Assembly: GCF_016545825.1 (NCBI RefSeq)
Contig: NC_052615.1
Span: 23,180,520-23,244,519 of the forward strand
Reading direction: 5' to 3'
Length of the DNA stretch: 64,000 bases
From: Eucalyptus grandis
Lineage: Eukaryota; Streptophyta; Magnoliopsida; Myrtales; Myrtaceae
Shown here: piece after piece, positions 31,250 through 38,149 of the stretch
How positions within the stretch are numbered: position 1 is the first letter of the stretch
Layout of the letters: each line of letters opens with the position of its first letter
Notes under the pieces: generated by a model
What the model saw: only the letters and a program-made list of their open reading frames with translations
Databases searched by the model: none
What the model was told of the DNA's origin: nothing
Translations under genes and position numbers: made by a program

Positions 31250-34200
31250 TCATATATCCTCAGGGCCGTTTATAAGCTGAATAATGATGCAAAAGAATTA
31301 GAGAGCAGGAACTGAGCTGAGTGAAAGGAGCACATCCATGACAAATCTAAGAATCCCACAGCAATACCTTGTTGTCAAGTACTACTCCATCAGGAATTTC
31401 AATCCTCATCCCAGGTCTTGCAACAATGCTGACATTCCCCTTTTGGCAGAAAACAAAAAAATTAAGAACAAGTAATAATTCCGAGAGACAACCCCAAGCA
31501 TCATTCTTAAGTTGCAGAATTACTGTGAAACATTGAAGTAAATAAGTGAAAATCCATTGCTATTTAAGTGAGATCAACAAAGATGGTACCATACCTACAA
31601 ACTTATGACAAAACAAAATGGTTATGACAATACTAATTGATTAATTTACATGACAATTTAGACAAGATACGCCCATCCTGATATGTCTAAGTTTACAGTA
31701 TATTCTCTTCAGTGATTGATTACAAATTACATCTGAAAGTAATTTAACACATGAGATAGCATCATTTCTATGGAAAGCGGAGTCTGCATGATAGTCTAGA
31801 TCTAAATAGAGCACTATTGCCAATACTGCATCTTTAAGCAAACATCGATTTTCTTGCAACTCATACTCTATAGATGGAATAAACAGAGTAAGTGAATCTT
31901 CACAGTTTAACCCATGGTCTGATGGGTTGCACTGTAGGACCCATTTCCTCCATCTAAAATTGTAGTGGGTCCTTAATAATCAGACAAAGTTTATAAAAAC
32001 AGACGCCAAGCAGAGTGTCCATACCTTGAGCTTAATGCCATTTCCAAACCACACATCACCAGTGACATTCAAGCTATCTAACTCAACTACACTGGGAATA
32101 GACTTGAAGCGGCTTGCAAAACTATCCAACTGAAAAAGGCAGATATAATGAAACATAACATTAATATCCGTAACAGGCGGTATAAGAATACACAACTAAA
32201 GTAATTTTCACCTTATCAAATTCAGGTCCTAACTCGATAGAAGGATTTTTGGGATTAGTTCTGGCAGCATTTCTAATTAGAACTCCATTGGATGTGGCAT
32301 ATAGATCCGACTGCATATGAACATTAGAGTAAAAGATAGCACTCATATCAAGTACAACGTGCAGATTGGAGAATGTTCTGTAGTTTGTAATACCTGGAGA
32401 AGAAGCAGATCTGAAGTTGAATTTAGAGGAAAATAACAGGATGGAGGGATGGAAATACCAATTGCATGCTCAAAAAACTGGATCAAAGGAAAGAAAATAA
32501 TTTTCCATAAGAAAAAAGCACCAATCAAATGCAACAAAGGTTGCAAAAGAAACTCATATGAAGAAAGGCGTTTACTCGTATTATTGAACTAGCTGCTGTT
32601 TCTTGCATTAGAGATGAACCAGCATCTACTTCCTGCAGCAACAAGAGCAAAAAGTTAGCCATTTCTTTTCATAAATATGTATCTAAATATTAATTCACAA
32701 AACAGCAAAAGAAAATTGTCATAATATTAAATAAACTTACCCATTTCAGTGCATCAGTCTCCACAAGTCTTTTGATGGCATTCAGATTGATCCACCTGTA
32801 AAACAAAGTAGAGAACTGAGCTTTCAGGCTTATTTCAAAGCTTTAGCAAGCCATATGAAAATGAAGTAAAATTTTACTCACATGTTTTTTGTATCAAGCA
32901 ATTTGAACTTCTCTGACAACTTTGAAAAGATGAAGAAAAAGCTTGAAGTTAGACATGTAATACAATGATACGCCGCAAATATGAAAGCAATTATATAACA
33001 AGCAACCTTCCTTAGTCACAGTTTGGGATGCTTACTCTTTCAGAAGGCTTCTGAGCAATTTCTCCAAGCTGAGTGCACCATAAAAAGGACAAACTCATTA
33101 TTATTCACATTGTTGAAGGACGAGCTACATTTCAGCTTTTGAAGAACTCCCCACCATAAGCAAAGCATACCATCATCCCCACAGATTGTTCCAACAAGAA
33201 CTAGAACTAGCTATACTAAAAATGGGAAGAAACAATTTCCTATTCATTATTAATCAATCGTATCATTATTCACCAAGCTAATACAACAGCACTTGCGATG
33301 AAGCAAATCCTACCAATGACACACCTACATAACAGAAAGTACAGCCAGTGGCATAGAGATTACAAAGCAGAAAGCTGTTAGTCTGTGGTATATGTACCCC
33401 CTCAGACCTGATTAAGAAACGATCCAATTGATCAAGATGCACAATGAGGGGAAAGGATAAACCTATGTATATACATATACGTACTGACTAAAACAAATTT
33501 ATTTAACTGTTTGATCCCAACAAACTGTCTTCTTTTTCCCTTTTTTTTCCACGAATTGTGTCTCTGAACTTTTCAAGTTTTTCTAATTTGGGCACCTCCA
33601 ATCCATTTTCTAACCACTTCGTCCTCTTACAATTATCCAGACATAAATCAATTCTTAAAATTCATTTCCATTGATTTTCCTTAAAAAACTTCTACATTTT
33701 TTTGGATAAAAACACCTAATGTTTTTCCTCTTGGCACCATTAATGTTTGTGTTGCCGAGTCATTTATTTATAGGGAAGAGAAGAGATTTAGACTCCAACT
33801 GCACAACCAAAATTATGTTCCACTTCATCAGTAAAACAAAGCTTTTCCAAAAAATTTAACAAGGCTTTCAATCGACATCCGCATTATGGCCCATAGTTTA
33901 AAAAAAATGGACCACAGGAGCAGTAAAGCAGTAATATACTACCCACCTGGAACTTCCTCTCTTCGAAATTTGCAAAGTTCCCATTAACATCAATGGATGT
34001 AGTGGGCCTTACCTGAACAAAAAATTCCAGAGTCATTGCTAATGAAACATAAAGAAAACAGAAAGCAATCTTGGCTACCTACCTCCATACAACATTCAAC
34101 TTTGTTCTGACTTAGGTGGTTTAGTATCTCTGTAAACAGACGTTAAGGATATCAAGTGATAGCACAATATCCACAAGCAGTCAATAACTGAAGAACCCCA

Positions 34201-37171: not shown

Positions 37172-38149
37172 CTTCAATCCAGAACTCAATCATGTAAAAG
37201 CCAAAAACTCAGCCACTTGCTAACATTAAGAACTTCTAAACATCCATGAACAAAAGAAAGTGCTAGGCATTTAGCACACCAGGAGCTGTATGAACAAAGG
37301 AAAGTGCTAGGCATTTGAAAAGATCTTACTTTCCAACATTCAAATGAAAGAAAGAATAATTCCCCACATGCGCAGCTTTCACCAATCCTCATAATGCAGT
37401 CCCAGAAATCATTTGAAGAAATTCAAACCAAACAAGAATGAATCACGCGGTCCATCAAAATGTAAAATTGCATACCGAGCTTCAGGCTTGGGGGCAGAGG
37501 CAGGGGCAGAGGCAGAGGCGATGCCGAGCCGGTCCTTGGCAGCAGCGAGCTTCTTCTGCTCGAGCAGGAAAGTCTTGGTGATCATATTACAGAAGAGGTA
37601 CACGAACTGCACCGAGTCGTTGGCCGGGATCGGGTACTGTATCTTCCGGTAGCACTCCCACGGCATGCTGGAGTCCACGAGCGCCACCACGGGGATCTGC
37701 AGCTTCGCGGCCTCCTGGATGACCGACGACTTCCGCTCGGTGTCCATGACCACGAGGCAGTCGGGCGGCTGCGTGGGGCCGAAGCAGATCTTCTTGTTGC
37801 GGGAGCGGAACTTCTTGGGGCTGCAGCTGTTGGTGAGGAACCCGCCCGTCCGCCACAGCGCGTTGCCGCTGGGGGAGTAGCACCCGATCCGCCGCGTCAT
37901 CTGCTCCACGATCTCGTCGAACAGCGGGTTGGTGTTGACGAACATGAAGCGGCCGCGCTGGCGCGCCAGGGCGGCGATGAAGTCGCAGGCGTTGCGGAGG
38001 CAGACGAGGGTGCGGTCGGAGTCGATGATGGTCATGCCGTTGCGGGTGCCGTAGGCGAAGAGCTTGAAGTGGTGGGGGGTGGCGACGCGGCGGCCGAGGT
38101 GGGCGTTCGTGCTCAGGAGCTTCTGGATGACGATGGAGTGGAGCGTCAT
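31250..38149 (-). CDS. RPS2: Mitochondrial ribosomal protein uS2m fused to a UDP-glucose pyrophosphorylase-like domain
   Basis: Twenty exons (from 5'): 38149-37476, 37171-37059, 36673-36583, 35871-35811, 35714-35637, 35554-35504, 35399-35347, 34566-34494, 34370-34313, 34129-34083, 34012-33947, 33068-33036, 32919-32882, 32795-32741, 32632-32576, 32477-32394, 32310-32212, 32129-32025, 31439-31368, 31276-31250. All introns are GT-AG and the phases agree; the sum is 1935 bases, giving 644 residues. Residues 1 to about 205 match plant mitochondrial uS2 ([39 protein letters not shown]), a small-subunit protein of the mitoribosome. An Ala/Pro/Lys linker ([20 protein letters not shown]) follows. From residue about 226 the sequence matches plant UGPase to its native C-terminus (INGPEDI). 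Codon 225 is split across the exon 1/2 junction. Immediately upstream of exon 2 the frame is closed by a TGA, so the UGPase part has no start of its own. Exon 1 is GC-rich, the others are not. Reading past the exon 1 donor would add 22 codons and end the protein at 37409. Confidence 0.9.

Follow-up and report, generated by a model that had tools for sequence, protein, structure and literature searches.

The nuclear gene for mitoribosomal protein uS2m of Eucalyptus grandis and many other eudicots continues in frame into a UGPase-like domain

A gene that joins uS2m to a UGPase-like domain

Here, we describe a gene of Eucalyptus grandis whose first exon encodes the mitoribosomal protein uS2m and whose remaining exons encode a domain resembling the enzyme UGPase. 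The gene lies in a window of 64,000 nucleotides (contig NC_052615.1, positions 23,180,520 to 23,244,519); all coordinates below are positions in this window. It is read on the minus strand from an ATG at 38149 to 31250, a genomic span of 6900 bases. Rebuilt from the window sequence, it comprises 20 exons with a coding sequence of 1935 nucleotides and one terminal stop. The product has 644 residues, laid out as uS2m (1-203), a linker (about 204-245) and a UGPase-like domain (about 246-644). All 19 introns are GT-AG and range in size from 70 to 878 nucleotides. An initial annotation, made from the sequence alone, had given the same coordinates, splice sites and single frame, and these are reproduced here:

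37476..38149, minus strand, exon 1: 674 nucleotides; start codon, whole uS2m domain (residues 1-203) and first part of the linker
37172..37475, minus strand, intron 1: GTATGC..GAAG, donor GTATGC at 37475; stop at 37409 if unspliced
37059..37171, minus strand, exon 2: linker and beginning of the UGPase-like domain
36583..36673, minus strand, exon 3: altered nucleotide loop, G to A at residue 282
35811..35871, minus strand, exon 4
35637..35714, minus strand, exon 5
35504..35554, minus strand, exon 6
35347..35399, minus strand, exon 7: with exon 8, the UGPase stretch ending in PPGHGD, shortened and replaced
34494..34566, minus strand, exon 8: with exon 7, the shortened and replaced PPGHGD-ending stretch
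34313..34370, minus strand, exon 9: ANSDN aspartate retained (D409)
34083..34129, minus strand, exon 10
33947..34012, minus strand, exon 11: VKGG lysine of UGPase replaced (N443)
33036..33068, minus strand, exon 12
32882..32919, minus strand, exon 13
32741..32795, minus strand, exon 14
32576..32632, minus strand, exon 15
32394..32477, minus strand, exon 16: PVKATSD lysine of UGPase replaced (N535)
32212..32310, minus strand, exon 17
32025..32129, minus strand, exon 18: beginning of the conserved C-terminal left-handed beta-helix
31368..31439, minus strand, exon 19: beta-helix
31250..31276, minus strand, exon 20: final residues and TGA stop at 31250; AATAAA downstream at 31127

Exon 1 has a GC content of 65% and the remaining exons 41%. 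If exon 1 is not spliced, its frame runs to the stop at 37409 and yields 246 residues; none of the four AATAAA-like signals looked for occurs inside intron 1. The acceptor of this intron, TTGAAG, is preceded by the lowest pyrimidine content of the 19 acceptors (45% over the 20 bases before AG). In the UGPase-like exons, the working frame contains the final stop and no other, while the other two frames contain 29 and 44. The frame of exon 2 is closed directly upstream of the acceptor by a TGA at 37176-37174, with no ATG between, which leaves the downstream exons without their own start codon. The initial annotation had seen this stop and argued that the downstream part relies on the uS2m start; fused proteins and short intron-free contigs in many eudicots, described below, agree with that view.

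Domain identity, distribution and expression

Exon 1 had been held to encode the whole of uS2m, and the alignments concur. Residues 1-203 align with residues 1-205 of plant mitoribosome uS2m (6xyw_Ba, E 9e-88; 9evs_A, E 1.3e-87), so that the match extends over the known length of uS2m, and they have the uS2 fold. Pfam finds Ribosomal_S2 (PF00318) in the fusion protein in two stretches, the best at 11-109 (E 1.7e-28). A protein from the searches below, P0001, whose residues 1-203 are the same as those of the window protein, shares 64% identity with cauliflower uS2m 9evs_A across 187 aligned residues. For residues 242-644, the matches are plant UGPases (5weg_A, E 3.9e-136; 1z90_A, its residues 44-469, E 9.5e-134) with 53-59% identity, and Pfam assigns UDPGP to residues 251-612 (E 6.4e-98). 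The predicted fold of this tail includes the C-terminal left-handed beta-helix of UGPases, and the UGPase-like fold as a whole is predicted to be intact; the linker has low model confidence in the predicted structures. Relative to UGPase, the tail begins at about residue 45 and runs to the C-terminal end, and the stretch before GHGD is shortened. Its start had earlier been placed in mid-UGPase, which is too far in, given that a normal UGPase has about 470 residues.

The same fusion was sought in relatives. A search with residues 1-225 as query admitted candidates of 0.55-1.75 times 644 residues; because these lengths were set by the whole fusion, proteins consisting of uS2m alone could not appear among the matches. 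It returned 331 matches, and both Pfam domains are present in all of the best 120. An asterid query (Davidia) returned 381, with both domains in 119 of the best 120. These rows rule out a fusion private to this genome. Among the matches listed, the nearest named ones are from Corymbia, Psidium and Syzygium, and about 17 orders are represented: Myrtales, Sapindales, Malpighiales, Fabales, Rosales, Cucurbitales, Fagales, Saxifragales, Santalales, Ericales, Cornales, Gentianales, Solanales, Lamiales, Asterales, Apiales and Trochodendrales. Most orders were assigned by genus name; Trochodendrales, Proteales and Santalales were confirmed by look-up. Malvales, Caryophyllales, Vitales, Brassicales, Ranunculales and monocots were not found among the fusions in the best 120 of 331 or of 381.

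The two best-120 lists, with P0126 and P0171, form a set of 194 proteins in which some species and genera are repeated, and the rows are not independent. In 174 of the 194, coverage exceeds 80% for uS2m and for the beta-helix alike, and 165 of these 174 have a GDVWFG-like motif. The other 20 comprise 14 in which no more than half of the beta-helix is present, two without most of uS2m, one model from Telopea and three that are partly covered. P0304 (Telopea), P0278 (Ipomoea) and P0263 show uS2m with an unrelated or much shortened tail, which hints at absence or loss in some lineages, with the qualification that these models or contigs are perhaps incomplete.

Several of these proteins bear on expression. 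P0001 has 644 residues and differs from the window protein at eight, with no gaps. Its longest contig has 2132 bases, against 6900 for the gene, and must therefore be intron-free, like spliced RNA. P0001 thus supports the junction of exons 1 and 2, a processed genomic copy being the alternative source of such a contig here and in any other single case. Among the proteins, 23 are known only from short 'lgn' contigs (longest 1947-2878 bases), which are too short for gene and introns if those genes resemble the 6.9 kb window gene; 20 of the 23 are whole fusions. Could the fusion nevertheless be an artefact in which two adjacent genes were merged? Merged models do occur, and Dovyalis P0022 also has a Ribosomal_L3 domain, as if a neighbouring uL3c gene had been swallowed. 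However, the downstream part lacks a start, the 20 short-contig proteins are whole fusions, and Trochodendrales, Solanales and Myrtales share one breakpoint. We consider an artefact scarcely credible and reject it on the whole fusions from short intron-free contigs. Fused proteins together with such contigs across many eudicots indicate that the fusion is almost certainly expressed and conserved. The window gene is the nuclear uS2m gene, and the two-domain protein is its normal product.

The window also contains a Ribosomal_L3 exon (Pfam; plastid type by eye) at 13328-13942 on the minus strand. Dovyalis P0022, which is named uL3c, joins Ribosomal_L3, Ribosomal_S2 and UDPGP domains in one gene model, so the uL3c and uS2m genes may be neighbours in Salicaceae too.

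Lost catalytic residues and a conserved beta-helix

For reference we used 116 UGPases of 430-490 residues, taken from the 120 listed rows of a further search, without P0126 and P0171. One of the 116, P0161, reads as a fusion fragment and is the sole exception in the counts of 115 that follow. Alignment A1 contained 59 of 122 fusion rows (120 plus P0126 and P0171), chosen for length and spread; alignment A2 contained 73 of the 194 fusions. The lysine of PVKATSD is present in 115/116 UGPases versus 3/59 fusions in A1 (window N535), the lysine of VKGG in 115/116 versus 8/59 (window N443), and the second glycine of the nucleotide loop LNGGLGTxMG in 115/116 versus 8/59 (window A282). The GHGD histidine is retained in 27/59 fusions (window Q379) and the SDN aspartate in 54/59 (window D409). 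Across the 174 well-covered proteins, asterids included, 8 have the PVKATSD lysine and 16 the second loop glycine; lysine occupies the VKGG position in 29, in a gapped region (55 gaps) where the alignment is less certain. The two lysines correspond to the catalytic K263 and K367 of potato UGPase, equivalent to K261 and K365 of Rhodamnia P0211. In short, the tail has the UDPGP domain and the predicted UGPase fold, and lacks both catalytic lysines and an unaltered nucleotide loop.

The fused domain is very probably inactive as a UGPase. A tail that still works as a UDP-sugar enzyme and so supplies mitochondria with UDP-glucose synthesis would be in line with the whole UGPase fold that is predicted and with the well-kept SDN aspartate. 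Against this, the lysines and the loop glycine are absent from most fusions and present in nearly all UGPases, and the GHGD stretch keeps 0 of 10 invariant columns. On these grounds we reject an active enzyme as highly improbable, and the earlier label of the tail as a UDP-sugar enzyme does not fit a domain whose catalytic residues are mostly lost.

Conservation was compared with 115 UGPases (P0161 left out), a column being termed invariant if shared by at least 97% of them and kept if shared by 80% of fusions. From UGPases to fusions, conservation drops from 0.91 to 0.55 in the catalytic part and from 0.83 to 0.72 in the beta-helix. Fusions keep 23 of the 29 UGPase-invariant columns in the beta-helix and 89 of 223 in the catalytic part. 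Of 395 circular placements of the boundary, 7 (the true boundary among them) yielded an equally large contrast. No stretch is less conserved than the linker (column conservation 0.09 at residues 201-220 of the window protein). As judged from these alignments, constraint has moved to the C-terminal beta-helix, which is the best conserved part of the fused domain. With most catalytic columns lost and most beta-helix columns kept, the UGPase module appears to have been retained without its active site. The beta-helix is a contact surface in known UGPases, and its conservation here suggests a binding surface.

Two further explanations have to be weighed against this pattern. The tail may be a functionless, harmless passenger in slow decay, as the relaxed catalytic part, the absence of the tail in Brassicaceae and its shortening in some other rows would allow. 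A single stop codon would remove such a tail, yet in 174 of the 194 proteins listed it extends through the beta-helix; moreover, conservation of the beta-helix comes close to that in active UGPases, with the few equally large circular shifts noted above. A passenger is therefore rather improbable. The main rival holds that the fusion is made and that its UGPase-like part is then cut off in mitochondria, so that a uS2m of about 205-220 residues alone joins the ribosome and the tail is an import passenger or short-lived fragment. Cleavage is suggested by the unconserved linker with its low model confidence, and by mitochondrion-encoded plant RPS2, which, to go by the title of Perrotta 2002, has a processed C-terminal extension. 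In pulp mitochondria of Citrus, a fusion-bearing genus, an anti-UGPase antibody gave no signal, according to a passage of PMC7848011; however, the antibody may miss so diverged a domain, and that passage names only a 51.6 kDa marker. A discarded tail, furthermore, should not keep most of the invariant beta-helix columns, or full length in 174 of 194 proteins. We regard cleavage as unlikely, though less so than the other rivals.

Elsewhere in the window, the following features were seen:

24713-25348, plus strand, GUB_WAK_bind exon of a receptor-kinase-like gene
45010-45444, minus strand, MuDR-type transposase DNA-binding domain
54001-56000, region rich in GC (61%) where open frames overlap on both strands
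62033-62452, plus strand, 2-Hacid_dh_C exon, perhaps of 3-phosphoglycerate dehydrogenase (name guessed)

Origin, proposed role and known systems

A tree was built from the window protein, 34 of the 194 fusions and 21 of the 116 UGPases, with midpoint rooting for drawing only. The 35 fusions and 21 UGPases fall on two sides of one branch, with support of 87/33 (88% of 200 bootstrap trees). Tetracentron lies nearest the UGPases, and the branch that parts the other fusions from UGPases plus Tetracentron has support of 100/100. The Tetracentron tail (P0276) starts at UGPase residue 45 (Telopea numbering), is decayed and short, and shares 65-67% identity with three true UGPases versus 42-45% with four other fusions. 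In Telopea (Proteales), the tail of P0304, a single gene model with uS2m, gave no UGPase match at E <=1 against the seven sequences tried. The data favour a single fusion origin before the split of Trochodendrales and core eudicots, with a weak key branch. According to passages of PMC4045975 and PMC11792336, rps2 disappeared from the mitochondrial DNA either of nearly all core eudicots or of the eudicot ancestor, a timing that fits a join of uS2m and UGPase at or after transfer.

These observations can be accommodated as follows. Early in eudicot history, rps2 would have left the mitochondrial genome and landed in front of a duplicated UGPase, to which it became spliced, with loss of the first 45 or so residues of the enzyme. 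One such event before the Trochodendrales/core eudicot split would fit both the shared breakpoint and the tree; Brassicaceae would later have lost the tail. The fusion protein may be imported into mitochondria via its uS2m part (import of Arabidopsis RPS2 needs no transit peptide, according to one paper), and this part would sit where uS2 belongs on the small subunit, close to the mRNA exit. There, the flexible linker of about 40 residues would hold the inactive UGPase domain as a non-catalytic module. The work of this module would probably be done by the conserved beta-helix, through binding to a partner or to a second copy. In Silene mitochondria, a nuclear uS2m that may or may not be a fusion gave 13 and 7 spectra, according to a passage of PMC13308715.

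Overall, a two-domain nuclear uS2m whose inactive UGPase domain serves as a non-catalytic module is the best explanation we can offer, and a reasonably probable one. We likewise lean towards retention of the tail for a non-catalytic role. That this role is exercised on the mitoribosome seems possible, with chances slightly short of even. More tentative still is the wider picture in which most eudicot mitochondrial small subunits bear an inactive UGPase domain, tethered to uS2m near the mRNA exit and acting via the beta-helix, for example in partner binding or small-subunit pairing. Such a domain could have been overlooked because the plants behind the mitoribosome structures are Brassicaceae, a family that would have lost the tail.

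Several points weigh against this interpretation. No peptide or structure that places the tail on the mitoribosome was found in the PDB and the open-access literature, and these sources likewise yielded neither a proteome nor a structure of a mitoribosome from a plant with the fusion. Brassicaceae uS2m in the PDB, the sole plant uS2m structures found there, does without the tail, which is thus dispensable at least in that family. Sequence change is faster in the tail than in uS2m (among the 59 fusions, mean pairwise identities of 0.59 and 0.76, respectively; the UGPase set reaches 0.89 over the tail columns). The 14 rows with at most half of the beta-helix include Ipomoea P0278, P0263 and Tetracentron P0276, some of which may be incomplete as models. 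The branch behind a single origin is modestly supported, and the Tetracentron sequence, as noted, is decayed and short.

If this interpretation is right, a ribosomal protein found universally would in many eudicots be differently built and far larger than in the plants whose mitoribosome structures were found. The earlier statement that nuclear uS2m has about 220 residues and no such domain stands for the Brassicaceae proteins in the PDB, and fails for eudicots at large. The fusion had also been called undescribed. We found no description of it in the open-access papers searched, most subscription papers lying outside that search; public gene models, on the other hand, already hold it, often under the name UTP--glucose-1-phosphate uridylyltransferase. 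Many proteins so labelled would be uS2m with an inactive domain, which could distort counts of the UGPase gene family. The string 'ribosom' occurs 0 times in the main text of each of three papers on that family (PMC8222925, PMC9161816, PMC4663468), and the passages found in PMC3595712 and PMC6953067 hold nothing bearing on the fusion. In Cicuta, a passage of PMC11792336 describes nuclear RPS2 as an intronless gene of 208 residues. Its relatives Daucus, Apium and Heracleum have, among the matches listed, fusion models of 614-631 residues, so exon 1 of Cicuta rps2 looks to have been taken for the whole gene; that rps2 transfer paper may have read exon 1 alone.

How does the fusion compare with known systems? 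The solved plant mitoribosomal uS2m proteins (Arabidopsis AT3G03600, PDB 6xyw_Ba, whose species we take to be Arabidopsis; cauliflower 9evs_A) have 219 and 212 residues and end where the fusion linker begins. With plant UGPase (AtUGP At3g03250, PDB 1z90/2icx/2icy; sugarcane 5weg) the tail shares sequence and predicted fold; it differs in lacking the first 45 or so residues, the GHGD stretch, the key lysines and a start codon of its own, and in being fused to a ribosomal protein. The extension of mitochondrion-encoded plant RPS2 is, according to the initial annotation, unrelated to UGPase. That protein, with a processed C-terminal extension according to the title of Perrotta 2002, is likewise a uS2m with a long C-terminal part, and differs in being encoded by mitochondrial DNA. 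The fusion is a mitoribosomal protein with a lineage-specific added domain. We know of no earlier case of a UGPase recruited as an inactive domain, and no search was aimed at such cases beyond the literature searches for the fusion. More generally, inactive enzyme domains have been recruited as subunits of ribosomes and other complexes, and there, as in this tail, an old fold persists without its active site.
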